Assembly: GCA_021813685.1 (NCBI GenBank)
Contig: JAKAJS010000162.1
Coordinates: 1 to 33,424 of the forward strand
Reading direction: 5' to 3'
DNA length: 33,424 bases
DNA from: Deltaproteobacteria bacterium
Lineage (GTDB): Bacteria > Desulfobacterota > Syntrophobacteria > Syntrophobacterales > Syntrophobacteraceae
Part shown: piece by piece, positions 1-32,908 of the stretch
How positions within the stretch are numbered: position 1 is the stretch's first letter
Layout: each line of letters begins with the position of its first letter
The notes under the pieces: model-generated
Database searches by the model: none
The model's input: the letters and a program-made list of their open reading frames with translations, nothing else
What the model was told of the DNA's origin: nothing
Position numbers and translations under genes: made by a program

Positions 1-743
1 GTCACGACGAGCCCGAGCCAGGTGACTCCGACCGCAGTTACGACCGAAAGAGCGATCGAGCGAGCCGGGCGGTGGGTAAGATTTACCGCCGCGGCTGCCG
101 GGGCGATGAGCAAAGAGGCCGTGAGAAGGATGCCGACCAGGAGCACGCAGGCTGCCGTTGTCAGGGCGAGGATGGCCAAAAAGGCGGTGGAAAGGGTGCG
201 CATGGGCACACCGCGCGCTTCGGCCCCTGCCGGGTCAACGGAGGCGAAGAGCAACGGCCGGTGTACGGCCGCAAGCGCCGCCAGGGCTGCCGCGCAAGCC
301 GCAATCGCAAGCAGTATCTCTTTCGAATTTATGGTCATCAGGGAGCCGAAAAGAATATTTATGCCGCTCATCGCGTGGGAACCGCTCGTGCGCGAATAGA
401 TGCTGAGAAAAAGCACACCGAGCCCCAGGGCGAACGAGAGCACCATCCCGATCTCCACGTCCCTTCCCCGCACCCGGTTTCCCAAAATGCCCAGTCCCGC
501 GGCAGCCAGAAGCGAAAACACGATCATTCCGACAAGGCTTGGCACTCCCAGTAGCGCCGCGCCCGTCGCCCCGGCGAATCCGATGTCGGTAAAGGCCTCC
601 GCGGCGAACGCCTGCGCCCGCAGGACCAAAAAGTAGCCGACGCTTCCGGCGACAACCGCCACTATGGCGCCGCCGAGAAACGCATTGGCCATCATTCCCG
701 AACTGAAAAGCTGCCCAGGCATCGCGTTTCCGTTTTCCTGCAT
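1..743 (-). CDS. Metal ABC transporter permease, second of two (TroD/ZnuB-like), 3' end cut by window edge
   Basis: Inner-membrane permease of the ABC-3 family, which moves divalent Mn, Zn or Fe. About 247 codons are visible before the window ends, so the C-terminus is missing. The translation is almost all hydrophobic segments separated by short loops. It contains family-typical stretches such as GYFLVLRAQAFA, FTDIGFAGATGAALLG and RGVPMRTLS. An alternative start lies at 722; I chose 743 because an AGGAAT-like site sits upstream and the reading frame is open. The start overlaps the end of the first permease gene by about 50 bases, which suggests coupled translation. The two permeases probably form a heterodimer. 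Metal specificity cannot be read from the permease. Confidence 0.85.
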   Translation of the reverse strand, partial: MQENGNAMPGQLFSSGMMANAFLGGAIVAVVAGSVGYFLVLRAQAFAAEAFTDIGFAGATGAALLGVPSLVGMIVFSLLAAAGLGILGNRVRGRDVEIGMVLSFALGLGVLFLSIYSRTSGSHAMSGINILFGSLMTINSKEILLAIAACAAALAALAAVHRPLLFASVDPAGAEARGVPMRTLSTAFLAILALTTAACVLLVGILLTASLLIAPAAAAVNLTHRPARSIALSVVTAVGVTWLGLVV

Positions 744-1627
744 TGGTCGTGGTTATTCCTGAAATTCCTCGCGGCGTGTCCGGCGCTTGGCTCCATCGCA
801 GCTGTCGTGCGCCACCCCTTCTCGCCAAAAAATATCCTTACCGGCATGTACACCAGAAAGGAGATCGAAGCGATAAAGAAGCTTACCGGCCAGTCCCCGC
901 TAAGTCCCGCAAGGGTTACGCCGGCAAACATGTAGACGATCCCGAGAAGCGCGGCAAGAAGGATCGCGTGCGCAGGCCGCTTGGCCAGCCGAGTCGCGGT
1001 CGCCCCCGGCCCCACCAGGAGCGTAAACACCAGAAGAGCCCCCACCACCTGAACGGCAAGAGATACGATCACGGCGACAGCCAGCAGGAAAAGGAGAGTC
1101 AGAAGGCGGACAGGAACTCCTTTGGCCTCCGCCACAAAGGGATCGAAGGTGATGAAAAGAAGTGGCCGGAACAATACGAGAATCAGCCCGACAGTCACAA
1201 TACTCATCAAGCCGGTGAGAATCATATCGCTGCGCGTTATTCCCAGAACGGTTCCAAAGAGAATGCTGTAGATGCGTTCGGCATACCCGCCGTAGAGCGA
1301 TAGAAACATCAGCCCCAACCCTAGCGCAAAAGACATTACGACGCCGATGGATATGTCCCGCTCGCGAAGTTCCCGGCCCCCGACGCTCATGGCCCCGGCG
1401 GCCAGAACGGTGAGGGCGAAAAGGCCGTAGACCGGCCTTACCCCGAAGAGCACCGCGCCGGCTGCGCCCGCAAAGCCGATATTGGGAAGCGCATGCCCCG
1501 CAAACGTATACCCGCCGCCGATGAGAAAATACCCGACGACGGCCGCTGCCACGGCAATGAACATGCCGCTGTAGAGCGCGTTTCGGAGGAACTCGAAATG
1601 GTACAGGGCGATAATGGAGTGCAGCAT
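692..1627 (-). CDS. Metal ABC transporter permease, first of two (TroC/ZnuB-like)
   Basis: ABC-3 family membrane permease of 311 residues with about eight hydrophobic segments. It shares segments with its neighbour (GYFLIGGGYTFAGHALPNIGFAGAAG, shown here only as key residues G, F, H, N, G; and RERDISIGVVMSFALGLGLMFLSLYGG-like helices), so the two permeases are paralogues. Its ATG overlaps the stop of the ATPase gene in a TGATG arrangement, typical of tightly coupled subunits. The last 40 or so residues are polar and outside the usual family core; they are encoded partly by the overlap with the next gene. It most likely works with the ATPase and binding protein encoded upstream to import a divalent metal. 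Confidence 0.9.
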   Translation of the reverse strand: MLHSIIALYHFEFLRNALYSGMFIAVAAAVVGYFLIGGGYTFAGHALPNIGFAGAAGAVLFGVRPVYGLFALTVLAAGAMSVGGRELRERDISIGVVMSFALGLGLMFLSLYGGYAERIYSILFGTVLGITRSDMILTGLMSIVTVGLILVLFRPLLFITFDPFVAEAKGVPVRLLTLLFLLAVAVIVSLAVQVVGALLVFTLLVGPGATATRLAKRPAHAILLAALLGIVYMFAGVTLAGLSGDWPVSFFIASISFLVYMPVRIFFGEKGWRTTAAMEPSAGHAARNFRNNHDQCRKTETRCLGSFSVRE

Positions 1628-2415
1628 CAGGTCTCGACTCCCAGGACAAACCTCTTCCCCATCGCTTCGACCACATCTACCGGATGATTGTAGAGCGAAC
1701 TGAGCGTTTCTCTGGTTATCACCGTTTCCGGCGAGCCTATGGCGGATCTGCCGTTCGCCATGTAGAGGACCCGGTCCACATGCTGCAAAAGCGGGTTGAT
1801 ATCGTGGGTCACAAACATGACGGCCACTTTGCGAGAGACACAGAGCCGGCCCACAAGAGCGATGATTTCCTGGGCGCTTGCGATGTCAAGATTTGCCAGC
1901 GGCTCATCGAGTAGAACGAGCCCGGGGTTGGCGATCAGCACCTGAGCGAGGGAAAGTCTCTGCCTCTCCCCCCCGGAAAGCTCGCCCACGGCCGCATCGG
2001 CATACTCGGCAGCCCGGACCTCCTCGAGCATTTCATCGACGAGCCTCCTGCGCTTGCGGCTGGGAAAGCCCGGCCCCCAGCGGTGGCCGTCCAGGCCAAA
2101 CCCCACGAGATCGCGGGCGCGCACGGCAAAATTGGCATCAAACGTCCGGAATTGGGGAGCATAGCCGATTTCAGGGTTGCCGCGGCGAGGCTTTCGGCCA
2201 AAAACCCGGATTTCTCCGGCTTCCGGCCGAATCAGGCCGAGAAGCAGTTTCAGAAGCGTCGTTTTTCCCGCCCCGTTTGGCCCCAGGACGGCTATGAACT
2301 CCCCGTCTTCGATCGTAAAGCTCATCTCGTTCTGGATCAGCCGCCCCCCGAAAGATATCCGGATGTCGTGCAAAGAAACGGGAACTCTTTGCGGACTGAC
2401 AAGCTCGGGCCTCAT
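1627..2415 (-). CDS. Metal ABC transporter ATP-binding protein (TroB/ZnuC-like)
   Basis: Cytoplasmic ATPase of the metal importer, 262 residues. Visible motifs in order: Walker A GPNGAGKT near residue 46, Q-loop region YAPQFR, ABC signature LSGGERQRLS, Walker B LVLLDEP, D-loop LANLD and the switch histidine in FVTHD. This full set indicates an active ATPase. The start overlaps the stop of the binding-protein gene by four bases (ATGA), and its stop overlaps the next permease start, so three genes are read as one unit. Length is normal for the family. The order binding protein, ATPase, permease, permease matches TroABCD and SitABCD operons rather than the divergent ZnuA/ZnuCB layout. Confidence 0.93.
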   Translation of the reverse strand: MRPELVSPQRVPVSLHDIRISFGGRLIQNEMSFTIEDGEFIAVLGPNGAGKTTLLKLLLGLIRPEAGEIRVFGRKPRRGNPEIGYAPQFRTFDANFAVRARDLVGFGLDGHRWGPGFPSRKRRRLVDEMLEEVRAAEYADAAVGELSGGERQRLSLAQVLIANPGLVLLDEPLANLDIASAQEIIALVGRLCVSRKVAVMFVTHDINPLLQHVDRVLYMANGRSAIGSPETVITRETLSSLYNHPVDVVEAMGKRFVLGVET

Positions 2416-3368
2416 TTCGCCCCCCCCGCCGCCCCGGCATCCAGAGCGGATTCGAGCGCCTCGATCTGCTCGAGCATCCAGGACTGGTAGTGTTTTCCCG
2501 GCGGCATCGTTTCGGTTACCCCGACCACCACCACCCCGGAGCGCTTTGCCAACTCCTTGAGATCTTCGGTAAACCGGTCTGCGGTCTGTTGGTTGTAGAC
2601 CAGCGCACGCACCAGTTTCTTTTTCACCTGGTCCCGCGCGACAAGCACCGCATCGGCCGGCGGGTCGATCCCCTGGGCCACCGCCTTTTGAAACGCGAAC
2701 GGGGTCAAGACCTTGAGACCCATGGGAACGGACTGATACTGGAATATCGGCTCGGTCAGCGCAATCGGCGCGCCGGGAAACCGCTTCGATACCGCGCGCA
2801 TTTTCGCTTCGATCTCCTCCAGGCTTTTGTCGAAGGCCTGGAGGTTCTTTTCAAACCAGGCCGCCTGCTGCGGACGCAAGGTTTTTAGATCTTTCGCAAG
2901 AGCCGCCGCCACAACCTTCATATCCTCCACGGAGTACCAGACGTGCTCGTTTTCGGGAAGTTTTACCGGAGAAATATCGAAGGCATTTATTACGAGCCGG
3001 CCCGGGTCGGGGGAGGCCGACAAAAGCTTTTTCATCCACTCGTCATACCCGCCGCCGTTTTCGATCACCAGGTTCGCCCCCGCCACCTCCATTGCGTCCC
3101 GTACGCTCGGCTCAAATTCGTGCGGATCGATATTCGGGTCGGACTGCACGCTTTTGACCCTGGCATACGGGCCGGCAAGCTGGGCGGCAATGTCCCGGTA
3201 AAAATTCTCGGCAGCCACAATAGAAAGAGGGCCGGAGACAACCGTTTTCGCTCGCGCCGGACAAACGGGCATGGAGGCGGCCTGAACCAGAAAGATCGCC
3301 GCCATTGCGGCCGCTAAAAAGAACCTGCGCCGGAAAGCAGGAGCTGGAAAGGTCTCTGATTCGACCAT
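2412..3368 (-). CDS. Metal-binding periplasmic solute-binding protein (ZnuA/TroA/PsaA family)
   Basis: Cluster A-I metal receptor of 318 residues that delivers Mn, Zn or Fe to the permeases. Residues 13-40 form a signal peptide (RRR followed by a hydrophobic core, then an ARA site). Likely metal ligands by position in the family are His83 (DPHEFEP), His142 (NEHVWYS), Glu206 (ALTEPIFQY, where Zn-type proteins usually carry His) and Glu286 (VGVTETMPP). A His-His-Glu-acidic set is seen in Mn-type receptors such as PsaA, and the His-rich loop of zinc-specific ZnuA is absent. Manganese or iron is therefore at least as likely as zinc. The start has a GAGGAA ribosome site. The first gene of the operon, directly behind a Fur-type operator. 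Confidence 0.9.
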   Translation of the reverse strand: MVESETFPAPAFRRRFFLAAAMAAIFLVQAASMPVCPARAKTVVSGPLSIVAAENFYRDIAAQLAGPYARVKSVQSDPNIDPHEFEPSVRDAMEVAGANLVIENGGGYDEWMKKLLSASPDPGRLVINAFDISPVKLPENEHVWYSVEDMKVVAAALAKDLKTLRPQQAAWFEKNLQAFDKSLEEIEAKMRAVSKRFPGAPIALTEPIFQYQSVPMGLKVLTPFAFQKAVAQGIDPPADAVLVARDQVKKKLVRALVYNQQTADRFTEDLKELAKRSGVVVVGVTETMPPGKHYQSWMLEQIEALESALDAGAAGGAK

Positions 3369-5912: not shown

Positions 5913-6899
5913 TTATTGACTTATTTTCTGCCTCCCAACAATGTCCAGACGTTCCAACAACATTATTCGGATTTGGGATTCGGTGACCCGTTCACGTTCG
6001 CGAATCAGAGACTCCTTCAAGGCCTCTTCGGCAGCCCGCGTGATCTCTGCCTGACTAAGGCCGACAGCGATTTTTGCCAGACGATTCCACGAAACGTTTT
6101 TTGCGGATGAAACAGCCAATCGTGCTTTCAGCAATGAGGCAATTTGCTTTTCCTCCGGAAGCTCATAGCGGAGTACATCATCGAAACGTCGGAACAGCGC
6201 ATGATCGAGGATTTCCGGATGGTTGGTGGCGGCAACAATCAAGCTGTGGGAAAGGTCCTGCTCGATCATCTGCAGGAAACTGTTAAGTACCCGCCGGATT
6301 TCGCCCACATCATTCGACAACCCTCTTTGGGAGCCGATTGCGTCGAATTCATCAAAAAAATAAACTCCGCGGGTCTGGTCGGTGGCATCGAAGACCTGCC
6401 GCAATTTGGCCGCCGTCTCTCCCATGTACTTCGTGATCAGTCCGTCCAGACGCACCAGGAATAAAGGAATACCCAATTCCCCCGCAAGAACCGAGGCGGT
6501 CAGTGTCTTTCCCGTTCCTGGAGAGCCTACGAGCAGGAGTTTGCGTCTCGGTGAGAGCCCGTGCGCCAGGATCCGGGCGGCATGCCGTTGCTCCAGGATG
6601 ACCCGCTGAAGCTCCTGCTCCAGTCCGGAATCCAAGACAAGGTCACCCAAGCGGGCCTTCGGGTAGGAAACCGTTAGCAAGCCTGCCAACTCCCCCCGCG
6701 GCCGGCTGATGGGAACCGGTTTAGACGAACCCCTGCGTCGCTTGGCTTCATCGATCAGGGCCCGGAGTTCCTCCGCCAATTTGCCATGACCAAGCTTTGC
6801 CTCATGCGCGGCGACCTGCATGACCACTGAAAAGAAACGCTGGTCATCGCCCTCCAGGTGTGATTTGAGCAGGGCTTTCAACTGTTCGGCACTTGCCAT
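5913..6899 (-). CDS. ietA: AAA ATPase, IetA-like component of an ATPase-subtilase defence pair
   Basis: Soluble AAA+ ATPase of 328 residues. A helical N-terminal part (1-75) precedes the ATPase core: Walker A GSPGTGKT at 125-132, pore region KYMGETAAKL, Walker B FFDEFD at 181-186, sensor 1 AATN at 223-226 and arginine finger LFRRFD at 236-240. The C-terminal helical lid contains AEITRAAEEAL. Members of this family are paired with a subtilisin-like protease; the pair IetAS was reported as an anti-phage system and earlier as a plasmid stability locus. A strong AGGAGG site seven bases before the ATG supports the start. It lies 30 bases after the methylase frame. Its protease partner is only a fragment here, so present function is uncertain. 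Confidence 0.82.
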   Translation of the reverse strand: MASAEQLKALLKSHLEGDDQRFFSVVMQVAAHEAKLGHGKLAEELRALIDEAKRRRGSSKPVPISRPRGELAGLLTVSYPKARLGDLVLDSGLEQELQRVILEQRHAARILAHGLSPRRKLLLVGSPGTGKTLTASVLAGELGIPLFLVRLDGLITKYMGETAAKLRQVFDATDQTRGVYFFDEFDAIGSQRGLSNDVGEIRRVLNSFLQMIEQDLSHSLIVAATNHPEILDHALFRRFDDVLRYELPEEKQIASLLKARLAVSSAKNVSWNRLAKIAVGLSQAEITRAAEEALKESLIRERERVTESQIRIMLLERLDIVGRQKISQ

Positions 6900-8156: not shown

Positions 8157-9731
8157 TTACGTAGGGGCTTTAGAAGGCTCGGTTTGTGCAATCTCTGCTT
8201 CCTTGAGCTTCCCGCCCGATGAGTCGCTAAGTAGATAATATGGATAGCGTGCCCCCATGATCCGAGCCCGAGCTAGGGCCAAGGCTACTCGCGAAGTGTC
8301 AATTGTAATCCAACGCCTGCCCCATTGCTCAGCCACATACGCCGTGGTGCCAGAGCCACAGGTCGGGTCAATCACTAGATCCCCAGGATCAGTAGCCATT
8401 AAAATGCAACGTTCAACAACCTTGGTGTTGGTTTGAACCACGTAAAGTTTGTCTTCGGTAAAATTCCCCGACCCCGTGTCTGTCCAGATGTTACCATGGA
8501 CCGCCGCATCAAAATCGGTGTGGAATCGCACATATCGAATCGAGTTCTCTGCAGCATGGATACGATTAGCTCTTGCTAGTCTCTCAATTCCCTGAGGGTA
8601 ATTAGCCTTCCAGTGAGAGTTCTTCCCCCAACTATCATATGTCTTACCCCGGAAGATAAACGGTTGTGGCTCTTTTGATCTCCCTTGAGACAATATATTA
8701 TCGGGTTCGTATGGACGTGCTCCTTTCGGTAATATTTCCTCACCACGTTTCTCTTTTGCTGTTACGCCACGATAAGTGGCGTCCTCAAACATCAGCCATT
8801 TAGCATTCCCCTCACCAAGAACGAATTCCTTACGGTAGAAAGGCGGATTTGACTTTCCGGCCGCTTTATCCTTGGCGTACCACAGTACGAAATCGGACAT
8901 ATTCCCGAGATATCTCGCTTCAAATCCTGTTGTTGTCTGGATTGAAATTAGGCTGATAAAATTCCTGTCGCCAAAAACCTCGTCCAGCAGAGCACGGACT
9001 CGGTGAACATTCTCATCTCCTATTTGAATGAAGATGGAACCGGAATTGGCGAGAAGGTCACGCGCGACTGTGAGTCGGTCGCGTAGGTAGGTCAAATACG
9101 AATGAATCCCGTCCCGCCAAGTATCACGAAACGCCTTCACCTGTTCCGGCTCACGGGTGATATGGTCGGTGTTGCCATCTTTCACATCGCGACTGGTTGT
9201 TGACCACTGAAAATTAGAGTTGAATTTAATCCCGTAGGGAGGATCGATATAGATGCACTGAACTTTGCCGCGCAACCCTTCGCGTTCGGCCAGGGAGGCC
9301 ATCACCTGAAGGCTGTCGCCCAGGATCATGCGGTTGGACCAGTTGGCGTCGTGCTGATAGAACTCGGTCTTTGCGTTTTCGCCCGGCAGGCCGTTGAAGT
9401 CGGCGAACAGGTTGATCTGCTGCGGCTTACCAACTTTTTCCTGCTTCCTCGTCTGGCGAACCAGGTCGTCTACGAGCACCTTGGGATGGACCTTCTCCTG
9501 GATGTATAGCGGCGGGGCCTGGACTATCAAATCGGACCAGTCCCGCTCGTCTTTACCACGCCAGACCAGTTGCGGATCGAGGTCCCGGTTGCGACGCTCA
9601 TAGGCCACTCGAATGGGGCTTTGCTCTTCCTTGCGCATGACCGACTGGTATTCGGCGGTAGGAATGTTTTTACGCGAAGCATCCGCGTGCGTGATGGTTT
9701 CAATGGTCTTTGTCGTTGTCATCTTTGCCAT
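8157..9731 (-). CDS. Type III-like site-specific adenine DNA methyltransferase (Mod), N-terminal catalytic part
   Basis: A 524-residue product that holds both catalytic motifs: the DPPY motif IV at 163-166 (IYIDPPYGIKFNSNF) and, near residue 455, the AdoMet-binding motif I (DPTCGSGTTAYVAEQWG). IV before I defines a beta-class N6-adenine or N4-cytosine methylase, the class of type III Mod subunits. The part between them is visibly more AT-rich and less conserved, as expected for the target recognition domain. The start follows the res stop by one base (TAA-G-ATG). The protein ends at a TAA inside the family-typical frame, so it lacks about 400 C-terminal residues. Methylation activity may survive, but contact with the restriction subunit may not. 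Confidence 0.85.
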   Translation of the reverse strand: MAKMTTTKTIETITHADASRKNIPTAEYQSVMRKEEQSPIRVAYERRNRDLDPQLVWRGKDERDWSDLIVQAPPLYIQEKVHPKVLVDDLVRQTRKQEKVGKPQQINLFADFNGLPGENAKTEFYQHDANWSNRMILGDSLQVMASLAEREGLRGKVQCIYIDPPYGIKFNSNFQWSTTSRDVKDGNTDHITREPEQVKAFRDTWRDGIHSYLTYLRDRLTVARDLLANSGSIFIQIGDENVHRVRALLDEVFGDRNFISLISIQTTTGFEARYLGNMSDFVLWYAKDKAAGKSNPPFYRKEFVLGEGNAKWLMFEDATYRGVTAKEKRGEEILPKGARPYEPDNILSQGRSKEPQPFIFRGKTYDSWGKNSHWKANYPQGIERLARANRIHAAENSIRYVRFHTDFDAAVHGNIWTDTGSGNFTEDKLYVVQTNTKVVERCILMATDPGDLVIDPTCGSGTTAYVAEQWGRRWITIDTSRVALALARARIMGARYPYYLLSDSSGGKLKEAEIAQTEPSKAPT

Positions 9732-9732
9732 C

Positions 9733-12700
9733 TTATTTCCTTAGACCTCCGGCGGGCTGGGGAGCTATGGAATCGATCATCCGGTTAAACCTTTCCTCAA
9801 CTTTTGCCTTGAAATCGGTCTCGATCCGGTAGATCTCGGTAAATTCCGCAAATGCCCATCGACCATACCGACCATTATTATTCACTCCGGGTATCCAGTA
9901 GGTCTCCATGGTTGTTTTCTTATCTTTGGCATCTTCACGCCTGTATCCCTTAATTTCGACGATCAGGTGCAGCGGATCTTCCGAGCCGTCTTCTACCAGA
10001 ACGATGAAATCGGGCCTGTACTGGCGCGTCTCGGAGCCGTATCGGTAGGGGACTTCCAGGCCAAGGTTATGGTTTTTGACGTAAGCCACGACGCGGGGGT
10101 GGGATTCGGCAACCCGGCAAAACTCGGCCTCCCAGTCGCTGTCGAGAATGACCCAATTGATGTGACACCGGCGAGCATCCGTCTCCCAGCGTTCCTTCCT
10201 GGACGTGTTGAAATTCACGTGCATGGTGGATCCGGTTGGGTTATAGGGGTCGAGCACGGCCTTAATGGGGCGCTCGCCCGATAGAGAGCGGGTGATCGCG
10301 GCGGTAATGCGTTCGCAGGCCATGTCGGCCAATTCCTGGTACATCAGCAGTGCGGGATAAGTATCGCCTTTGCAGACCAGGCAGTTATCGAGCCACTGTT
10401 TTGTGATCCGCTTCAGTTGCCCGAACAGATAGAGTTTCGGCTCTTCTTCGGGATCGCGCCATTTCGTGTATAGCAGACGCTTGGCGACGTGAAACAGCAG
10501 TGTCGAGCGCCTCAGGTCTCCCAGGTGCTCGAGCGTCAGGTCAACGGCTTCGCCGATGATACCCTGATCTCTGGTGATCGACGGCCCCACGAGATCGGGG
10601 GTAAGCTCCAGGATGGAGTCATCGTTGAACTCCGCCGTGAGCCGCTCCTGCGGAAGCTCGACCCGGTAGCCTGCCACGCGCGGGAACCGGATTTCGAGAT
10701 GATCTCGATCGGGACGAACAGCCTTAACCTGGATGGTATCGCGGGGAGGCTGCGGCGGGGCCACAACAGGCCTGGCGGTAAAATCGAATGGAATCCCCAG
10801 AACGTCGGCGTATTCGACGTTAAACAAGCCCTCTTCATTGAGATCGTAGGACTGACGACGCAGCGCCCGTCCGATGACCTGTTCGCAAAGGAGCTGCGTT
10901 CCGAAGGCGCGTATGCCGAGAACATGGGTAACGGTGTTGGCGTCCCAGCCTTCGGTCAGCATCGAAACGGACACGACGCAACGGATTGATTCCCCGAGGC
11001 GGCCCTTCTTGCCGACGGTATTCATGACTTCCCGGAGCAGGTCCTGATCGCCGATGTTCTCTGCCTGGCGGACATCGCCGGTGCGCTCGATAATTTCACG
11101 GCGGAAACGGTCGATCAGAGCCGAAGCTGCGTCCCGGAAGTTCTTGTCCAACGCATCGCCTGATTCAAGCTGCTCGCTGTCGATCAACAGAGTGTGGGGG
11201 CGGGCAAGCTGATTGCCGTGCTCGTCGAAGTTCCGGAACAGTTCGAGCCGACCGTTTTCAAGGGTTGTCGAACCGTCTTCGTTCTCCCGGTTAAAGCCCG
11301 AGATGTAATCATAGACGAGCTTGGATGTCGAGGTGTTGTTGCAGACCACGATAAAGCAGGGAGGAACGTGAATGCCATTTTCCTTCCACAGGTTGTATGT
11401 CTTTTCATAGTGACCGTAGAGCGCCTCAAGCGCCGTTTGAAGTTCCACAGGAAGGCTGAGCGGATCGAGGGTCTTCGATTTGCCCCGGCCTTTCTTGGGC
11501 ATGCGTTTGCGGATATGTTCCCAGAGGTTGCGGAATTTGGGCATCTCTCCACCGGGGATGTTGTCGGCAACGGGCACCCGCGGGAGCTTGACGATCCCGC
11601 ACTCGATGGCGTCCATCAGGGAGAAGTCACTCATCGTCCAGGGAAACAGGGTGCCTTCGGCATAGCCGGAGCCGCGCAAGAAGAAGGGAGTGGCCGATAA
11701 ATCAAAGATACGAGGCACGCCAAGCTTGCGGTTAACGGCTTCCAACCCCGAAATCCAGAGGCGCGCCGCCTCGTTGTTCTTTTCCGCCTCTTCCTTTTCG
11801 TCGCCCTGCAAATCGCCTTCAGTATCGCCGTTGGGTTTTTCACGATAGCAGTGGTGGGCCTCATCGTTCAACACAAGGATATTTTTCATGCCCATTAAAT
11901 CGGGCATCACCCGCTGGAGCATCTGTCCTTCGGTTTCCAACGTGTTTAACGCTTCCCCACGGCCCTGGAGGAGCGAGCGTCCTCCCTTCGAAAGCTCCAT
12001 CCGCTCGCGAAGTTTAAAGGCATGATAGTTGGTTATGACTATTTTTGCCCGGTCCAGTTCCCCCAGCAGGTCACTCGGCACCAGTTCACGGCTTGCATAG
12101 TAACTGTCCGGATCGTTAGGCTGGAGCACACGCAACCGGTCCCGGATTGTCAGACCGGGTGTGACGACCAGAAAACCTCGCGTGAATTTCCTGCTGCCGG
12201 GTCGTCGCACCGCGTTGATTGTCTGCCAGGCAACGAGCATGGCCATGATAGTGGTTTTACCAGCACCCGTGGCAAGCTTTAGAGCCAGGCGCATAAGCTC
12301 CGGGTTTGCCTCGTGGTTGGCATCGGCAAGGTGTTCGAGAAAGATTTTACCGGCCTTCCCCGCCTTCGGCGCGACCTCGGAAAGCCAGATGGCAGTCTCG
12401 ACGGCCTCCACCTGGCAGAAAAACGGGCGGAAGTTGTTGAACTTATGGTGTCGCCAATGCTGGAGAAGACGTGCGGTTTCCGGCGTAACCTGCCAGTCGT
12501 TTGGATTGGGCAAACGCCGCCACGCGTCCACATGGGAGCGGAGCGTATTTATAATGCCGGTGGGGTCGTAGCGCTGCTCCCGGGTGGAAAGCCCTTTGCC
12601 GTCACCGAAAAGCAGATTGAGTTGTTGTCCGGCTGAATCCTTGCGTTTTCTAGGCTTCGGGATGGGGGTGATAAACTTTGCGCGGCGGCGTTTCTCAATA

Positions 12701-12801
12701 ATTCGTTGCGTGGGCTGGCCATCGTCGTCAAGCTCCCAGTGCCGCATCGGGTATTCGTATGGAGAGTTGAGGACGGGCTTTTCGAAGAATCGATTATCCA
12801 T
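9733..12801 (-). CDS. Type III-like restriction endonuclease subunit (Res, BPTD_3080-type)
   Basis: A 1022-residue ATP-dependent restriction subunit. The superfamily 2 helicase core shows Walker A LATGAGKTT at about 177-184, DEAH box at 313-316 (LVLNDEAHHCYRE), motif III FDLSATPFF near 367 and motif VI CEQVIGRALRR. A PD-(D/E)xK nuclease lies at the C-terminus: YRPDF near 928-932 followed by VEIKGYR near 948-954. The frame is open upstream to 12900, but I chose 12801 because an AGGAGGAG site lies nine bases before this ATG and the family begins with MDN-type sequences. It is the first gene of the defence operon. The gene appears intact, in contrast to its methylase. Confidence 0.9.
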   Translation of the reverse strand: MDNRFFEKPVLNSPYEYPMRHWELDDDGQPTQRIIEKRRRAKFITPIPKPRKRKDSAGQQLNLLFGDGKGLSTREQRYDPTGIINTLRSHVDAWRRLPNPNDWQVTPETARLLQHWRHHKFNNFRPFFCQVEAVETAIWLSEVAPKAGKAGKIFLEHLADANHEANPELMRLALKLATGAGKTTIMAMLVAWQTINAVRRPGSRKFTRGFLVVTPGLTIRDRLRVLQPNDPDSYYASRELVPSDLLGELDRAKIVITNYHAFKLRERMELSKGGRSLLQGRGEALNTLETEGQMLQRVMPDLMGMKNILVLNDEAHHCYREKPNGDTEGDLQGDEKEEAEKNNEAARLWISGLEAVNRKLGVPRIFDLSATPFFLRGSGYAEGTLFPWTMSDFSLMDAIECGIVKLPRVPVADNIPGGEMPKFRNLWEHIRKRMPKKGRGKSKTLDPLSLPVELQTALEALYGHYEKTYNLWKENGIHVPPCFIVVCNNTSTSKLVYDYISGFNRENEDGSTTLENGRLELFRNFDEHGNQLARPHTLLIDSEQLESGDALDKNFRDAASALIDRFRREIIERTGDVRQAENIGDQDLLREVMNTVGKKGRLGESIRCVVSVSMLTEGWDANTVTHVLGIRAFGTQLLCEQVIGRALRRQSYDLNEEGLFNVEYADVLGIPFDFTARPVVAPPQPPRDTIQVKAVRPDRDHLEIRFPRVAGYRVELPQERLTAEFNDDSILELTPDLVGPSITRDQGIIGEAVDLTLEHLGDLRRSTLLFHVAKRLLYTKWRDPEEEPKLYLFGQLKRITKQWLDNCLVCKGDTYPALLMYQELADMACERITAAITRSLSGERPIKAVLDPYNPTGSTMHVNFNTSRKERWETDARRCHINWVILDSDWEAEFCRVAESHPRVVAYVKNHNLGLEVPYRYGSETRQYRPDFIVLVEDGSEDPLHLIVEIKGYRREDAKDKKTTMETYWIPGVNNNGRYGRWAFAEFTEIYRIETDFKAKVEERFNRMIDSIAPQPAGGLRK

Positions 12802-12890
12802 GCTTTCGCTCTCCTCCTGATACCACCACCGAGGGAAAGTACAGTTGCAAACCATGAGCCGCTGATAGAAGAATTCGGATTGGAATATCC

Positions 12891-12919
12891 CGGATAGCAC
12901 GTGCAGTGGAACTCGTCAA
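12891..12919 (-). promoter_or_regulatory. Possible promoter of the defence operon
   Basis: On the minus strand TTGACG and TATCCG are spaced by 17 bases, about 90 bases before the chosen start of the restriction gene. The -10 box is weak. No other candidate with better spacing was seen in this stretch. Confidence 0.3.
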
Positions 12920-21999: not shown

Positions 22000-23964
22000 A
22001 TGGATCTTTCGTTTCTGACCGTTCAAGTTTTGAGCGCCTTGCGCGAGGCGGCCTTCCTGTTTTTGATTTCCTCGGGGCTGACTCTGATTTTCGGGGTGCT
22101 GAACATTTTGAATTTCGCCCACGGTTCGCTCTACATGCTGGGGGCCTATTTCATTTTTTGGCTCACCCTGCACTTCGCAGGACCGGGGGCTTTTTATCTG
22201 GCGCTCATCGCCGCCCCTCTGGGGGTGGGGCTGATAGCGATGGTGATCGAGATGGGGCTTCTGCGGCGCATCTACGCCCGGGAAGAGATCTACCAGCTGC
22301 TCCTCACCTATTCGCTCGTTCTGATACTCGATGATGTGGCAAAGATCGTCTTTGGCCCCGACTACAAATCGATTCACAAACCGGCGTTCCTTTCGGGGTC
22401 GGTGACATTTCTTGGAAGCACCGTCCCGGTCTATACGATCCTGGTGGTGATCGCAGCACCTTTCGTCGGGCTTCTCATGTGGGGGTTGCTCTACCGGACC
22501 CGGTTCGGCAAGGTGGTGCGGGCGACGGCATCGGACCGGGAAATGGCCGACGCGCTCGGCATCAACATGACGAGGCTCTTTACGCTCGTTTTCGGAATCG
22601 GGGCGGTTTTGGCCGGTTTTGCGGGAGCGCTCGCGGGACCCGTGCGCACGGTTTTTCCGACCGCTGGAGACGAGGTGATCATCCAGTCGTTTGTCGTCGT
22701 GGTGATCGGGGGCCTGGGGAGTCTTTGGGGGGCAGCGGTCGGATCTCTTCTGATCGGCGCGATCCAGACGGTGGGGATCATTTTATTTCCCAATCTGGAA
22801 ATGGGGCTGATCTATCTCCTGATGGTCGCGGTCCTGATCGTAAAACCGTGGGGTCTTTTTGGAAAGCCGATAAAGATACGCTCTCTTTCCGAAAATACCC
22901 TCGGCACGGAGACCCGGGAGATTTCCGCCGTCCACTACTCGGTCCCCCCCGCCCTGCGCTATGCGCTGTTTGCGGCATTGATGCTCCTGCCGCTTTTTGC
23001 CGGCCGATACTACCAGTATCTTTTGAGCGAGATTTTTGTTGCGGCGCTTATGGCCATTTCCTTCAACCTGCTTTTGGGCACAACGGGGCTATTGTCTTTC
23101 GGCCAGGCGGCCTTCTACGGTGTGGGGGCCTACACCACAGCACTTCTTTTGACAAAGACGGGAATGGGCACCCTGCCCGCCCTTGCCCTGTGCGTGGTTG
23201 CCTCGGCAGTCGCTGCGGCGGTGATCGGAATTTTCTGCATTCGCCTGAGCGGGGTCCATTTCGCCATGCTGACCCTTGCCTTCGGCCAGCTGCTCTACAC
23301 GGTGGCTTTCAAGTGGTATGATTTCACGGGGGGAGATAACGGCATCCAGGGCATCCCGGTAAAGCCGCTCCACCTGGGCGGACACCCGTTACATATCGGC
23401 TCCATAAAGGCGATGTACTATTTCATCCTGGTGATCGTCGCGATTGCGGTGGCCCTTCTTCGCCGCGTGCGCTCCTCGCCCTTCGGGGCAACGCTCAAGG
23501 CGATCCGGGAAAACGGAGAGCGCGCCGCCTATCTGGGCGTAAACGTCAAGATGCACCAACTGGCGGCCTTCGTCATCGCAGGCGCCTTCACCGGCCTGGC
23601 AGGGGGACTCTACGCCCTCATGTCCAAGTCGATCACCCCGGACATCATCAACTGGACCATGTCCGCAGAGCCCGTGCTCATAACGATCATCGGGGGCATC
23701 TACTCCTTTGCGGGCCCGGCGGTCGGGGCGGCGATATTCGTTATGTTAAACGAGTACATCGTCGCATGGACCCAGAACTGGTCGCTTGTACTGGGCCTTG
23801 TGCTCCTGGGCCTCGTACTGCTTCTCCCGGGCGGGGTTGTGGGCGCCTTCAACGGCAAGGCCAGGGACTTTCTCGTTAAAATCAGGTGGATAAAACAGTG
23901 GGCTTTCTCGAAGTCGACGGAATCAAAAAATCCTTCGGAGGACTTAGAGCCCTCCAGAACGTGA
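22000..23964 (+). CDS. Fused LivH-LivM branched-chain amino acid-type ABC permease
   Basis: A 654-residue membrane protein that joins two permeases usually encoded separately. Residues about 1-285 are LivH-like (SGLTLIFGVLNILNFAHGSLYMLG; cytoplasmic loop DREMADALGINMTRLF; VVVIGGLGSLWGAAVGSLL). After a polar linker (285-315) the rest is LivM-like (LLGTTGLLSFGQAAFYGVGAYT; RENGERAAYLGVN; AGGLYALMSKSITP). Both cytoplasmic coupling loops are kept. Fusion probably fixes the heterodimer at 1:1. The C-terminal polar tail overlaps the ATPase gene in another frame by about 67 bases. A GAGG site precedes the ATG. Confidence 0.9.
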   Translation: MDLSFLTVQVLSALREAAFLFLISSGLTLIFGVLNILNFAHGSLYMLGAYFIFWLTLHFAGPGAFYLALIAAPLGVGLIAMVIEMGLLRRIYAREEIYQLLLTYSLVLILDDVAKIVFGPDYKSIHKPAFLSGSVTFLGSTVPVYTILVVIAAPFVGLLMWGLLYRTRFGKVVRATASDREMADALGINMTRLFTLVFGIGAVLAGFAGALAGPVRTVFPTAGDEVIIQSFVVVVIGGLGSLWGAAVGSLLIGAIQTVGIILFPNLEMGLIYLLMVAVLIVKPWGLFGKPIKIRSLSENTLGTETREISAVHYSVPPALRYALFAALMLLPLFAGRYYQYLLSEIFVAALMAISFNLLLGTTGLLSFGQAAFYGVGAYTTALLLTKTGMGTLPALALCVVASAVAAAVIGIFCIRLSGVHFAMLTLAFGQLLYTVAFKWYDFTGGDNGIQGIPVKPLHLGGHPLHIGSIKAMYYFILVIVAIAVALLRRVRSSPFGATLKAIRENGERAAYLGVNVKMHQLAAFVIAGAFTGLAGGLYALMSKSITPDIINWTMSAEPVLITIIGGIYSFAGPAVGAAIFVMLNEYIVAWTQNWSLVLGLVLLGLVLLLPGGVVGAFNGKARDFLVKIRWIKQWAFSKSTESKNPSEDLEPSRT

Positions 23965-27711: not shown

Positions 27712-30393
27712 CTAACGGCTCACGTTTTCCCGCAAACCGTTCATGATTTCGAGTCTGTGGTTCAATTTCTCGATCTTTTCGCCGAGCCGTGCGTTCTTTT
27801 CCCGCTCCTTTTCGATCACCTCGGGAGGGGCTTTTTGGAGAAAGTCATCGTTTGAGAGTTTTCGGCTGGTCATCCCGAACTCTTTTTCGAGTTTGGAGAT
27901 CTCTTTTTTGAGCCGACCCGACTCACTTTCGAAATCCAGGATGTCCTTCAAGATCACGAAAACTTCCATGTTGCCCACGACCGCCCCTGCCGCCTGCCTG
28001 GGTTTGGCCGCTTCGCCCGCGCGGACTATGGTGAGACTCGAAACCTTGGCCAGGTCGCACAGGGTTCGCTGCTGGCGCTCGAGAATATCGAACTGGGCAT
28101 ACTGCTCGCACATGCACACGACCTCGACCTTAAGAGCCGGCGCCACGTTCATCTCACCGCGAATGTTGCGGATCGCCACGATGACCGCCATGAGGGTTTC
28201 CATCTGCTCTTCGGCTTCCGGATCGAGGAAGACTGCACGAGATTCGGGGAATGTCTCCCGCATGATGCTCGCCCCCGCGGTATAGGGCTTCATTCTTTGC
28301 CAGATTTCTTCGGTGATGAAGGGCATCACGGGGTGCAGGAGCACCAGGACGTTTCGCAGGACGAAAGCCGCAACGGATCTCGCTACCCGGCCGGCCTCGG
28401 CGTCCTGGCCGTAGAGGTCGGGCTTTACGATCTCCAGGTACCAATCGCAGTACTCGTGCCACAGGAATTGATAGAGCACCTGCGCGTACTGGTTGAAATG
28501 ATAGTTATCAAGAGACTCGGCGGTCTCGGCAGCAACTTTTTGGAGTCTGCTCAGAATCCAGCGATGGGCGAGCCCTGCCGGTTTTTCCGCAACTTCTTCG
28601 ACCTGCCCCTCGACGCCCTCGAGGTTCATGAGCAGAAGCCGCGCCGCGTTCCAGATCTTGTTGACGAAGTGCTTGTAGCCCTCGATGCGATCTTCGGAAA
28701 GCTTTATATCCCGTCCCTGGACGGCGAAGGCGGTGAGGGCGAACCGCAGGGCGTCGGTGCCGTACTTGTCCATCATGACGAGCGGGTCGATCACGTTTCC
28801 CTTCGACTTGCTCATCTTCTGCCCCTCGCCGTCGCGCACCAGGGCATGAACGTAGACTTCCCGGAAAGGGACCTCTTCCATGAACCGCAGTCCCATCATC
28901 ATCATCCGGGCAACCCAGAAAAAGAGGATATCGAAGGCCGTAACCAGGGCGGAAGTGGGGTAGAATTTTTCCAGTTCCCGGGTTTTTTCGGGCCAGCCAA
29001 GCGTGGAAAAAGGCCACAGGCCCGAGCTGAACCAGGTGTCGAGAACGTCTGCATCCTGTTCGAGCTCAGTGCCCGAACACTTGGGACACTCGGGGGGAGC
29101 CTTCATGGAAACGACGACCTCGCCGCACTCCCGGCAGTACCAGGCCGGAATGCGATGGCCCCACCATATCTGGCGGCTGATACACCAGTCTTCGAGATTT
29201 TCCAGCCAGTTGAAGTAATCCTTTTCCCATTTGGCCGGAACGATTTTGGTTTTTCCCTGCTGTACCGCTTCGATGGCCGCTTCCGCAAGGGGCTTGGTGT
29301 TTACGAACCATTGCAGCGAGAGCATCGGCTCTACCACGCTGTGGCAGCGGTAACAGTGGCCGACCCGGTGCGTGTAGGGTTCGCTTTTCACCAGAAACCC
29401 GCCCTTTTCCAGATCCTTTAGAATCTGCCGCCGGCACGCGAACCGCTCCATCCCCGCGTAGGCTCCCGCCGCCTCGGTCATGTTGCCCGCTTCGTCGAGC
29501 ACCTGCAAAATCTCGAGATTGTGGCGGGTGTGCAGCTCGAAATCGTTGAAATCGTGGGCCGGGGTAACCTTGAGCGCCCCGGTGCCGAACTCGCGCTCGA
29601 CATAAGGGTCGGCGATTACGGGAATGTGGCGGCCGGCAATGGGCAGAACCACCATCTGCCCGATAAACGCCTTGTAACGGTTATCCTGCGGATGAACGGC
29701 GACGGCCGTATCGCCCAGCATCGTTTCGGGCCGGGTGGTCGCCACCACCAGCGCCCCTTTTCCGCTCACCAGGGGGTAGCGGATATGGTAGAGAAAGCCG
29801 TTCAGTTCCTCGCCTTCCACCTCGATATTGGCAAGCGCGGTCATGCAGCGGGGACACCAGTTGATCATGCGCCTGCCCCGGTAGATCAGCCCCTCGTTGT
29901 AGAGCGAGACGAAAACCTGGCGCACGGCCCGGGAGAGCCCCTCGTCCATGGTGAAACGCTCGCGGGACCAGTCGCACGAAGCCCCGAGCCGCTTCAACTG
30001 GTTGATTATGATGCCGCCATACCTCGCCCTCCATTCCCAGACGCGCTCGATAAAGGCCTCGCGGCCGATCTCGTGCCGGCTTTTTCCATCGGCGGCCAAT
30101 TGCCTTTCGACTACGTTCTGGGTGGCGATCCCGGCGTGGTCGGTCCCTGGCAACCACAGCACCTCGAATCCCCGGAGTCGTTTATACCGGCACAAAATGT
30201 CCTGGATCGTATCGTTTAGCGCATGCCCCATGTGGAGCTGGCCGGTCACGTTCGGGGGCGGGATCACTATCGAATACGGAGGCTTCGAACTGGTTGGGTC
30301 GGCCCGGAAAAAACCATTTTCCTCCCAGTATGTATACCAGTGCGATTCGACTTCGCTAAATTCATATCCCTTAGGCAGAGCGCCTTCGCTCAT
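27712..30393 (-). CDS. valS: Valyl-tRNA synthetase
   Basis: A complete 893-residue class I synthetase that charges tRNA-Val. The ATP site motifs are HMGH at 54-57 (PNVTGQLHMGHALND) and KMSKS at 526-530. The editing domain lies between them (TTRPETMLGDTAVAVHP). The anticodon-binding helices and a C-terminal coiled coil (SGRLKKEISKLEKEF to the end) complete the normal architecture. A GAGGAA site ten bases upstream supports the start. Only 18 bases separate it from the acidic protein gene before it, so they form one operon. No T-box leader is seen. Confidence 0.97.
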   Translation of the reverse strand: MSEGALPKGYEFSEVESHWYTYWEENGFFRADPTSSKPPYSIVIPPPNVTGQLHMGHALNDTIQDILCRYKRLRGFEVLWLPGTDHAGIATQNVVERQLAADGKSRHEIGREAFIERVWEWRARYGGIIINQLKRLGASCDWSRERFTMDEGLSRAVRQVFVSLYNEGLIYRGRRMINWCPRCMTALANIEVEGEELNGFLYHIRYPLVSGKGALVVATTRPETMLGDTAVAVHPQDNRYKAFIGQMVVLPIAGRHIPVIADPYVEREFGTGALKVTPAHDFNDFELHTRHNLEILQVLDEAGNMTEAAGAYAGMERFACRRQILKDLEKGGFLVKSEPYTHRVGHCYRCHSVVEPMLSLQWFVNTKPLAEAAIEAVQQGKTKIVPAKWEKDYFNWLENLEDWCISRQIWWGHRIPAWYCRECGEVVVSMKAPPECPKCSGTELEQDADVLDTWFSSGLWPFSTLGWPEKTRELEKFYPTSALVTAFDILFFWVARMMMMGLRFMEEVPFREVYVHALVRDGEGQKMSKSKGNVIDPLVMMDKYGTDALRFALTAFAVQGRDIKLSEDRIEGYKHFVNKIWNAARLLLMNLEGVEGQVEEVAEKPAGLAHRWILSRLQKVAAETAESLDNYHFNQYAQVLYQFLWHEYCDWYLEIVKPDLYGQDAEAGRVARSVAAFVLRNVLVLLHPVMPFITEEIWQRMKPYTAGASIMRETFPESRAVFLDPEAEEQMETLMAVIVAIRNIRGEMNVAPALKVEVVCMCEQYAQFDILERQQRTLCDLAKVSSLTIVRAGEAAKPRQAAGAVVGNMEVFVILKDILDFESESGRLKKEISKLEKEFGMTSRKLSNDDFLQKAPPEVIEKEREKNARLGEKIEKLNHRLEIMNGLRENVSR

Positions 30394-30411: not shown

Positions 30412-31164
30412 TTACTTAAGCTCATGTTTGAGCTTTGTGATTTCCTCATTTAGTATTGTGCGGACGAGATCGGGCATCATCGATTCCACCACGGCCCGAA
30501 TATGTTCCTGCAGGCGGGATTCGATGCGGCCGACAAGCTCTTCGGCCACGGCCGAAATCTCGGCGGCAGAAGCTTCCGCAACAGGCGCCGGAGGCACGGG
30601 CTCCTTTTGCGCGGGAGGCTCCTCGAGACTTTCCTCGGCAGCTTGCTCGGGATACTCTTCTTCGGTAAATTTGAGCGCCGCCTCAGCTCGTGCCCTCAAC
30701 GACGACGGCTCTCCCCGCTGCGCATCCGCGGGACTGGACTCGGCCAACAAATCGTCCAGAAGCAAGTCTTCTTCCTCATCGGCGCTCGGCCTGGGAGCTC
30801 TTTGCGCCGAAGGTTTGCCCGTCGAAATCGATACCGTGGGCTCGAAGAGCCTATCCTCCTCATCCGTTTCGGCGCCGAAGGATTCCAGAAGATCTTCTTC
30901 CTCTTCCCTTTGAGAGCGCCCTTTTCCGGGAAGCCCCGGGCCCTTTCGCGCAGACACTGCCGGCGGAGATTCGAGTTCCTCATCTACATCGAAAATGTCT
31001 CCGTCCAGATCCAGATCTTCCTCTTCATCGATGGGCCTGTCGGGCATCTCGATGATATCCTCGAGATCGATTATTTCCTCGTCATCGTCCTCGAGTTGCC
31101 TGTCAAGACCACTCATCGGATCTGATGTATCCTCGTAAAGGTTTTTTGGCCTGGCTTTTTTCAT
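30412..31164 (-). CDS. Acidic low-complexity protein with PopZ-like C-terminus, upstream of valS
   Basis: A 250-residue, highly acidic protein without signal peptide. Parts: an N-terminal basic start, a hydrophobic-acidic segment EEIIDLEDIIEMPD (29-42), a long disordered Asp/Glu/Pro-rich middle with repeated EEEDLL-type motifs (88-93, 130-137), and two C-terminal helices (205-250). The last helix reads MPDLVRTILNEEITKLKHEL and lines up from memory with the end of Caulobacter PopZ (LPRIVETKVEEEVQRI): Pro, Ile/Leu-Val, Thr, Glu-Glu and Lys/Arg fall in register. PopZ also has an acidic proline-rich linker, and its gene neighbours valS in Alphaproteobacteria. I infer a polar scaffold-like protein; overall identity is low. 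GAGAGG precedes the start. Confidence 0.75.
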   Translation of the reverse strand: MKKARPKNLYEDTSDPMSGLDRQLEDDDEEIIDLEDIIEMPDRPIDEEEDLDLDGDIFDVDEELESPPAVSARKGPGLPGKGRSQREEEEDLLESFGAETDEEDRLFEPTVSISTGKPSAQRAPRPSADEEEDLLLDDLLAESSPADAQRGEPSSLRARAEAALKFTEEEYPEQAAEESLEEPPAQKEPVPPAPVAEASAAEISAVAEELVGRIESRLQEHIRAVVESMMPDLVRTILNEEITKLKHELK

Positions 31165-31468: not shown

Positions 31469-32908
31469 ATGTTTTTGAAATCACTCAGCCACATGCGCAA
31501 ATCGGTTTCCTTTCGAATCGCCGTCTGGTATTCGATTCTTTTCCCCCTGAGCACGATGCTCGTGATGGGCGTCTTCTACTTTCTGCTCGCATCCAATGAA
31601 AACCATAAAGACCGACAGATTCTGCACGCCAAGCTCGATGAGTTCACCAGTCAGTACGCCGAGGGGGGGCTCAAGACGCTCGAACGCGCGATTCGCAGAG
31701 ATAGAGGACACGATCAAAGGGTCTCCATATTTATTCGCATAGCAGGCCCCGACAACGTCACGCGCTTTCTCAGCGTGCCCAAATCGGAAAAACTCGAAGA
31801 CTACAAATATCTCGAACACCCCGGCGTCCGCCCCCGGTGGATGGATCTGGTGACCGGCATCGGCCACCCCACCGAAGCCATTTCGGCCCCTCTGCCCGAC
31901 GGAAACTTTCTTCAGGTCGGGAGAAGCGTCAAGTACCGGGCAATCCTTCTCGACCGGTTTCGCGAGCTTTTTGTCGGGGTGATGATCCCGGTGATCCTGC
32001 TCGCGTTTGCCGGGGGCGCCTTCCTGTCCCACCGCGCCCTGAGCCCCCTTCGCGGCCTGATCGACATGGTCCGCTTTATTATCGATACGGGAAAGATGCA
32101 CAATCGGGTGCCGGAAAACCTCACCGGAGACGAACTGGAGGAGTTGATCACTCTCTTTAACGCCATGCTCGAACAGATCGAGACCCTGATCGACAGCATG
32201 CGGGCCTCCTTGGACAACGCCGCCCATGATTTGCGCACTCCCATCGCGAGGCTGCGCAGTGTCGTGGAAGTCGCTCTGCAGTCCGACCAGGGGGTGGAGG
32301 GGCTGCGCGAAGCCCTCATGGACTGCGCGGAGGAATCCGAACGGATTCTGATCATGGTGAATACCCTCATGGACATCTCCGAAGCCGAATCCGGGGTAAT
32401 GAAGCTGCACCTCGAAGAGGTCAAACTCTCCTATCTTTTTGAAGACGTGAGCCAGCTCTACGATTACGTGGCTGAAGACAAAAACATAACCGTTACCACC
32501 CAATGCCCCCCGGAGCTGACCCTTCAGGCCGATTACAATCGTATGAGCCAGGTTTTGGCCAATCTGGTCGATAATGCCTTGAAATACTCCCAACCCGGAG
32601 GTTCGGTGCATCTGAGCGCACAAAATGCCGGAGAAGAGATCGCAATCAGCGTGGAGGATACCGGGGAAGGCATCCCGGCCGAAGAGATCCCAAGGATTTG
32701 GGACCGCCTCTACCGGGTGGACAAGAGCCGCACCCGACGGGGGCTGGGGCTGGGACTAAGCCTTGTCAAAGCCATCGTACAGGCTCACGGGGGAAGCATC
32801 GAGGTGCAAAGCACGCCGGGGGAAGGCTCCCGCTTCACCGTGCGCCTCTCCCCCGCCGGCCCCCATCCGGCAGGGGAGAGCTTGACTCCGTATCTTGCAA
32901 CGAAGTAA
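31469..32908 (+). CDS. Membrane sensor histidine kinase with HAMP domain
   Basis: A 479-residue inner-membrane kinase. Two membrane helices (about 17-40 and 168-188) enclose a periplasmic sensor of about 125 residues. HAMP (188-245) leads to the HisKA domain with phospho-acceptor His253 in NAAHDLRTPIARLR, then the HATPase domain with N-box NLVDNALKYS, G1 DTGEGIP, and G2 GLGLGLSLVKAIVQAHGG. All catalytic boxes are present. Such CusS/QseC-like kinases normally follow a response regulator gene, but the upstream gene is divergent and unrelated. The ATG lacks a clear ribosome site, and a second Met at residue 9 is possible. Confidence 0.92.
   Translation: MFLKSLSHMRKSVSFRIAVWYSILFPLSTMLVMGVFYFLLASNENHKDRQILHAKLDEFTSQYAEGGLKTLERAIRRDRGHDQRVSIFIRIAGPDNVTRFLSVPKSEKLEDYKYLEHPGVRPRWMDLVTGIGHPTEAISAPLPDGNFLQVGRSVKYRAILLDRFRELFVGVMIPVILLAFAGGAFLSHRALSPLRGLIDMVRFIIDTGKMHNRVPENLTGDELEELITLFNAMLEQIETLIDSMRASLDNAAHDLRTPIARLRSVVEVALQSDQGVEGLREALMDCAEESERILIMVNTLMDISEAESGVMKLHLEEVKLSYLFEDVSQLYDYVAEDKNITVTTQCPPELTLQADYNRMSQVLANLVDNALKYSQPGGSVHLSAQNAGEEIAISVEDTGEGIPAEEIPRIWDRLYRVDKSRTRRGLGLGLSLVKAIVQAHGGSIEVQSTPGEGSRFTVRLSPAGPHPAGESLTPYLATK

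Follow-up and report, generated by a model that had tools for sequence, protein, structure and literature searches.

A gene upstream of valS in a deltaproteobacterium encodes a putative receiver-less scaffold protein of the PopZ/RomR kind

The protein analysed here has its closest described counterparts in alphaproteobacterial PopZ and in RomR, known from Myxococcota and other groups. The accessible text of one PopZ study describes the PopZ architecture as conserved across Alphaproteobacteria and the linker as tuning condensate properties (PMC9512792). In that of a second, homo-oligomerisation is associated with the last 42 residues (H3-H4), and popZ precedes valS in both C. crescentus and A. 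tumefaciens (PMC5686542). RomR, in the accessible sections of its description, consists of a receiver domain, a proline-rich linker and a C-terminal domain, RomR-C, which is Glu-rich with an invariant Trp and Pro (legend to Fig. 1), suffices by itself for polar targeting and is reported in section 7 as having no homology to characterised domains; RomR also co-occurs with MglA (PMC3441718). No paper joining PopZ and RomR via valS was found in a literature search whose coverage left out most subscription journals and all preprints.

The window, meaning the whole stretch of DNA analysed, comprises 33,424 nucleotides from a member of the Syntrophobacteraceae. An ORF of 250 codons on its reverse strand (30412-31164) starts with ATG and stops 18 bases before the start codon (30393) of valS (27712-30393, reverse strand), the conserved downstream neighbour. 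The identity of the valyl-tRNA synthetase is firm (PF00133, E 9.5e-150; PF08264 and PF10458 also matched), and the ORF coordinates bear out the spacing given in a preliminary description of this DNA. The product begins with a basic stretch (MKKARPK), and its residues 26-39 form an acidic motif, DDDEEIIDLEDIIE; the part that fits the motif pattern, DDEEIIDLEDIIE (residues 27-39; 31048-31086, reverse strand), is comparable to PopZ DDVLELTDVVEE. An acidic, proline-containing linker follows (residues 40-200; 30565-31047, reverse strand), the length and sequence of which differ among relatives. Residues 20-200 have fractions of 0.32 D+E, 0.09 K+R and 0.10 P, compared with means of 0.24, 0.05 and 0.14 for the middles of a class-wide PopZ sample (n = 70), a likeness of composition alone. 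The protein ends in a domain of about 48 residues (203-250; 30415-30558, reverse strand) that closes with MPDLVRTILNEEITKLKHELK and that profile A1 (built from tails of the close family), hhalign and reciprocal genome searches relate both to H3-H4 of PopZ and to the RomR-type tail described below. No gaps are needed to align the tail segment MPDLVRTILNEEITKLK with LPxLVERLVREEIERIAR of PopZ, in agreement with the residue register proposed in the preliminary description.

Searched alone, the window protein matched no Pfam or NCBIfam family above cut-off, RNA-binding and enzyme families included, and gave no match to the PopZ family PF10691 (DUF2497) at E 10. The sole weak Pfam match, GlutR_dimer (E 0.047), was judged to reflect a short helix and was discounted. 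The gene was found in one copy in its genome: profile A1 gave one real match, and a second, at E 0.32, falls inside what is presumably a HemB-like enzyme. Elsewhere in the window, a DNA methylase gene (8157-9731, reverse strand; PF01555) lies beside one for a 1055-aa ResIII-type protein (9733-12900, reverse strand; PF04851) in an arrangement like a type III restriction-modification pair, with an AAA ATPase nearby at 5913-6899. A metal-uptake operon at 692-3368 (reverse strand) encodes an ABC-3 permease, an ABC ATPase and a ZnuA-like binding protein. At 22000-23964 (forward strand), two BPD_transp_2 stretches occur in one 654-aa protein, which seems to be a fusion of the two branched-chain amino acid permeases and lies between a binding protein and two ABC ATPases. 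A Cytidylate kinase-like protein (PF13189; 32987-33424, forward strand) runs off the window end beside a histidine kinase (31469-32908).

The position before valS is conserved among relatives, as the preliminary description had led one to expect. A first homologue search covered 59 genomes, 26 of them from the window's family; 21 of the 59 matched, the window's own included. All 21 belong to that family, the 33 genomes outside it giving no match in this search, and in all 21 the homologue and valS share a strand, the homologue coming first and no more than about 310 bases away. Profile A1 matched 22 of 247 genomes of the phylum, and 14 of the 19 matches beyond the window's family stand directly before valS. 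The remaining five (L041, L044, L046, L047 and L042) were kept out of the valS-linked count. Locus L042 (genome G190) has about 1.3 kb downstream (to about 2781) with no valS and an opposite-strand ORF, presumably a transposase by its resemblance, before the contig ends; close relatives have valS there. Locus L046 encodes an 865-aa protein (468-3063) with many short LPxAL-type repeats and a weak match to the tail profile, and contains no valS. Across the phylum, valS was present in 247/247 genomes, with coordinates for about 150 places among the matches listed.

Sixty valS-upstream regions, in most cases one or two from each taxonomic family, were then examined without a sequence query; two (L081 and L103) had no upstream gene sequence. 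Under a loose criterion, applied partly by eye and based on acid content or the motif, 33 of the 60 held a member-like gene, L079 being a doubtful one, and in about half of the surveyed regions no such gene was recognised. In 23 of the 60 the tail reached an iterated profile. Two segments drawn into that profile (L044 and L047) are presumably sigma-factor-like, and its E-values were therefore not used as a measure of significance. When the window protein was aligned with the 33 (alignment A3), a PF00072 receiver domain was found in 16 of the 34 proteins, and the other 18, the window protein included, gave no receiver match at E 1. At an E-value limit of 1, PF10691 matched 2 of the 34, the stronger at 6.7e-4. 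In one family of the phylum, the N-terminal halves of L036-L045 contain a second conserved block, EPDSFDLGKEISMEYDVSVEEIE-like, that follows the DIIDLTDLLEEG motif.

The receiver-domain proteins that hold this position in other lineages of the phylum match the published description of RomR, and in this respect the earlier reading, which considered PopZ, was incomplete. The label "RomR-type" used for them rests on those published features, not on direct comparison with the M. xanthus RomR sequence. Ten such proteins encoded before valS start with a receiver-like (L/I)(L/I)ADDS, and their tails (profile A7, n = 10) have an invariant Trp-Glu and Pro, as in WEVVPDLAE, with WE(V/I)(V/I)P in 10/10. 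A PDB search with one RomR-type protein matched the receiver region alone among 60 of 180 matches listed. Profile A7 matched 75 of the 247 genomes, after two second matches in already-counted genomes were dropped. Of these matches, 45 lie beside valS, 14 do not (including L352 and L366, full-length loci without valS that were entered as non-adjacent) and 16 are without valS coordinates; among the best 30 loci, valS was found in 23. Two RomR-type tails (L358 in genome G100 and L360 in G064) have two tandem WEV(V/I)P units, so the tail unit seems to have undergone natural duplication.

These proteins raise the alternative that the window protein is a receiver-less RomR acting with MglA in motility polarity, and not a PopZ-type organiser of the chromosome or pole. 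Within the survey of 60, a close MglA (best E below 1e-90) was encoded by 9/9 genomes with a RomR-type tail before valS versus 1/51 of the others, in a table classified by hand before the Fisher test was applied. The window's genome also encodes one MglA-like GTPase (49% identity). That protein is distant (E 1.7e-56, compared with values below 1e-90 in the nine RomR-type genomes), and the close type, present in 35 of the 247 genomes, is absent from this one. The window protein resembles the RomR-type proteins in its place before valS, its linker and a Glu-rich C-terminal domain with the conserved Pro; its tail retains Pro and Glu-Glu, but it has neither a receiver domain (Pfam scan, PF00072) nor the conserved tail Trp. 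A RomR-like role in motility polarity is thus possible, though on the less probable side.

The neighbourhood of popZ was examined at 153 alphaproteobacterial loci. A scan of genome contigs supplied 80 of them; PF10691, searched in one genome and in its class, gave 30; another 40, more divergent, were taken from that search; and 3 came from plasmid or chromid records. The set holds at least one duplicate (L119 and L197, from one genome). PF10691 matched 121 of the 144 genomes of the class that were searched. At 135 of the 153 loci valS follows popZ on the same strand within 1.5 kb, which confirms popZ as a valS neighbour in this class; at 17, no valS was found in the examined flank. In Sphingomonas parapaucimobilis (L111, 3700-5322) a histidine kinase family gene lies between popZ and valS, and the popZ-valS link therefore tolerates insertion. 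Among plasmid records, PopZ was found in six, and ValS gave a few alphaproteobacterial loci. At three of the latter (L113, L115 and L116) a simple pattern detected no PopZ, and at a fourth (L114) no PopZ is annotated before valS.

The C-terminal domains were compared by profile-profile alignment. With hhalign, the 153 PopZ tails matched four separate groups of the phylum with probabilities of 94.6% (the window's family), 95.9%, 95.6% and 92.0%. In 200 shuffles that kept the hydrophobic/polar class of each column in place, the observed score was reached 0/200 times in each of the four groups (z 4.1, 5.4, 5.6 and 3.9). As a control with real proteins, 183 windows of 46 columns each were taken from alignments of ValS, TolC and Pcm; none reached the observed score, and their top probability was 2.5%. 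The margin is thinner for a mixed RomR-type group, because the reversed PopZ profile gave 55% probability against it. The ten RomR-type tails alone matched PopZ at 88.5% probability, above 183/183 of the same real windows as control, and the window's family at 92.7%. The tail match calls for caution, since the domain is only about 45 residues long and such helices attract false positives. Neither PF10691 (E 1) nor the 52-sequence PopZ profile A4 (E 0.5) matched anything in the window's genome, because the single protein is too diverged and the signal is carried by the family profile only. A PDB search with the 52-sequence PopZ profile found nothing below E 0.19.

Reciprocal searches at the scale of genomes agreed with these alignments. 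Across the 247 genomes of the phylum, PF10691 gave 89 matches at E up to 1, all below threshold: the gathering cut-off is 27 bits, the best score was 19.3 bits and no genome (0/247) passed. Nineteen of the 89 precede valS in the correct orientation at a distance of up to 1.5 kb, where about 0.02 would be expected under an assumption of independent genomes, which the genomes of one phylum are not. These 19 cover 11 taxonomic families, with 7/19 from one family. By rank, four of the top five matches precede valS, as do 14 of the top 30; the other 16 of these 30 do not stand beside it. Profile A4 (52 tails) likewise placed 19 of its 89 matches within 1.5 kb upstream of valS, with about 0.02 expected on the same assumption. 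In both searches, matches without valS coordinates (23/89 for PF10691 and 16/89 for A4) were never counted as adjacent, and 4 and 7 further matches, respectively, were counted as non-adjacent after inspection of the locus revealed no valS nearby. In the opposite direction, profile A6, built without PopZ from the C-termini of 26 of the phylum's valS-upstream proteins, gave 105 matches in 144 alphaproteobacterial genomes. Sixty-six of them fell on places that PF10691 assigns to PopZ, and the first 33 in rank were all PopZ (best E 1.9e-6). A relation to H3-H4 was thus found at the family level by hhalign, with its two nulls, and by the reciprocal searches; the helices themselves and their oligomerisation are predicted. 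On these sequence comparisons, the relation of the C-terminal domain to that of PopZ holds for the family as a whole but not for the protein taken singly, and the likeness exceeds chance. The profile match to PopZ that the preliminary description had proposed to look for is accordingly significant for the C-terminal domain when family profiles are used.

PopZ and the valS-linked proteins also have in common an acidic motif of the IIDLTD/VLELTD type. PopZ linkers can hold DDVLELTDVVEE-like motifs, and the proteins of the phylum hold DEIIELVDVVEEG-like ones; in the window's family the N-terminal conservation consists of an acidic IIDLED motif. A fixed pattern for the motif was found in 15/21 proteins of the window's family and 14/33 surveyed valS-upstream proteins. 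Among PopZ sequences it occurred in 24/70 of the class-wide sample and 29/153 overall, being rare in the mostly rhizobial remainder of the set (5/83). Among the remaining six-frame ORFs of the survey loci that reach 100 aa, the count was 0/387, in a background that was not matched for acidity and in which many ORFs are not genes. The H1 client helix of PopZ (MEEILASIRRII), detected by pattern in 139/153 PopZ sequences, was found in 0/21 close relatives and 0/33 surveyed valS-upstream proteins. The PopZ plan read into the protein by the preliminary description therefore holds for the acidic, proline-containing middle and, at the family level, for the C-terminal domain, but the N-terminal part is not an H1 helix.

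The preliminary description had left the choice between deep homology and convergence open. On the convergence view, the protein would be acidic but unrelated to PopZ, would end in an unremarkable pair of amphipathic helices, and would owe to chance both its likeness to PopZ and its place before valS. Short helices are easily mimicked, as the sigma-factor-like false positives and the 55% obtained with the reversed profile in one group illustrate, and the missing H1 and the non-alignable linkers are consistent with such an origin. However, convergence requires three coincidences, namely the genomic slot, the reciprocal whole-genome profile matches and an acidic motif seen in none of the 387 other ORFs (which were not acidity-matched), and the pattern-preserving shuffles never reached the score in any of the four groups. 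Convergence is consequently improbable, and the profile match taken together with the valS linkage favours deep homology.

The window protein has in common with PopZ the C-terminal domain (at the family level), the acidic, proline-containing linker, a (D/E)DVLELTD-type motif and a gene upstream of valS. It differs in lacking the H1 client helix, in scoring below the Pfam cut-off and in belonging to a different phylum. It is not a canonical PopZ, because no Pfam family was matched at cut-off and the N-terminal client helix is absent. The idea of a PopZ-like organiser is accordingly supported in its C-terminal relation and valS link, but not as membership of DUF2497 by the Pfam cut-off or in possession of H1. 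A role as polar scaffold would also be common to DivIVA and other polar hubs, from which the window protein is set apart by the Pfam result alone, with no match above cut-off. An accessory or regulatory function in valine tRNA charging, to which any polar likeness would be irrelevant, would fit the tight 18-base linkage but is very unlikely given that no RNA-binding or enzyme family was matched above cut-off, that PopZ occupies the slot in Alphaproteobacteria, that about half of the surveyed valS-upstream regions do not have the gene and that 16 of the 34 members have a PF00072 receiver match.

The product of this valS-linked gene is thus probably a PopZ/RomR-like scaffold that would gather clients at a cell pole. 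The analysis supports family-level homology of the C-terminal domain, a shared motif, a conserved place before valS and receiver-domain versions in that place; helix pairing, oligomerisation, polar localisation and client binding are predictions. In the proposed mechanism, the C-terminal amphipathic helix pair, homologous both to the domain through which PopZ oligomerises and to the RomR-type tail that targets poles, would self-associate, and for the window's tail self-association is most likely because of this homology. The long acidic linker would be disordered and keep the assembly loose, soluble and dynamic, and the N-terminal IIDLED motif may bind or recruit at least one client protein. 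Clients would then collect with the assembly at the cell pole, as happens with PopZ and RomR. They could be chromosomal, like those of PopZ, or motility proteins, like those of RomR; both are possible because the window protein has neither a receiver domain nor the RomR Trp.

The best reading of the data is one ancient valS-linked scaffold family with PopZ, the RomR-type proteins and the receiver-less protein of the window as its branches. The evidence leans towards descent of PopZ in Alphaproteobacteria and of RomR in Myxococcota and the window's phylum from a single scaffold gene that stood before valS in their ancestor, with the window protein as a receiver-less survivor near the ancestral form. 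If this is true, PopZ and RomR, well-known polar organisers that have been treated as unrelated, share an ancestor, and a common origin marked by valS would bring together two areas of bacterial polarity research that have been separate. An acidic linker combined with an oligomerising tail would then have served to organise poles before these phyla split. A polar scaffold would also be predicted in many uncharacterised species, with valS providing a simple genomic address for it in other phyla.
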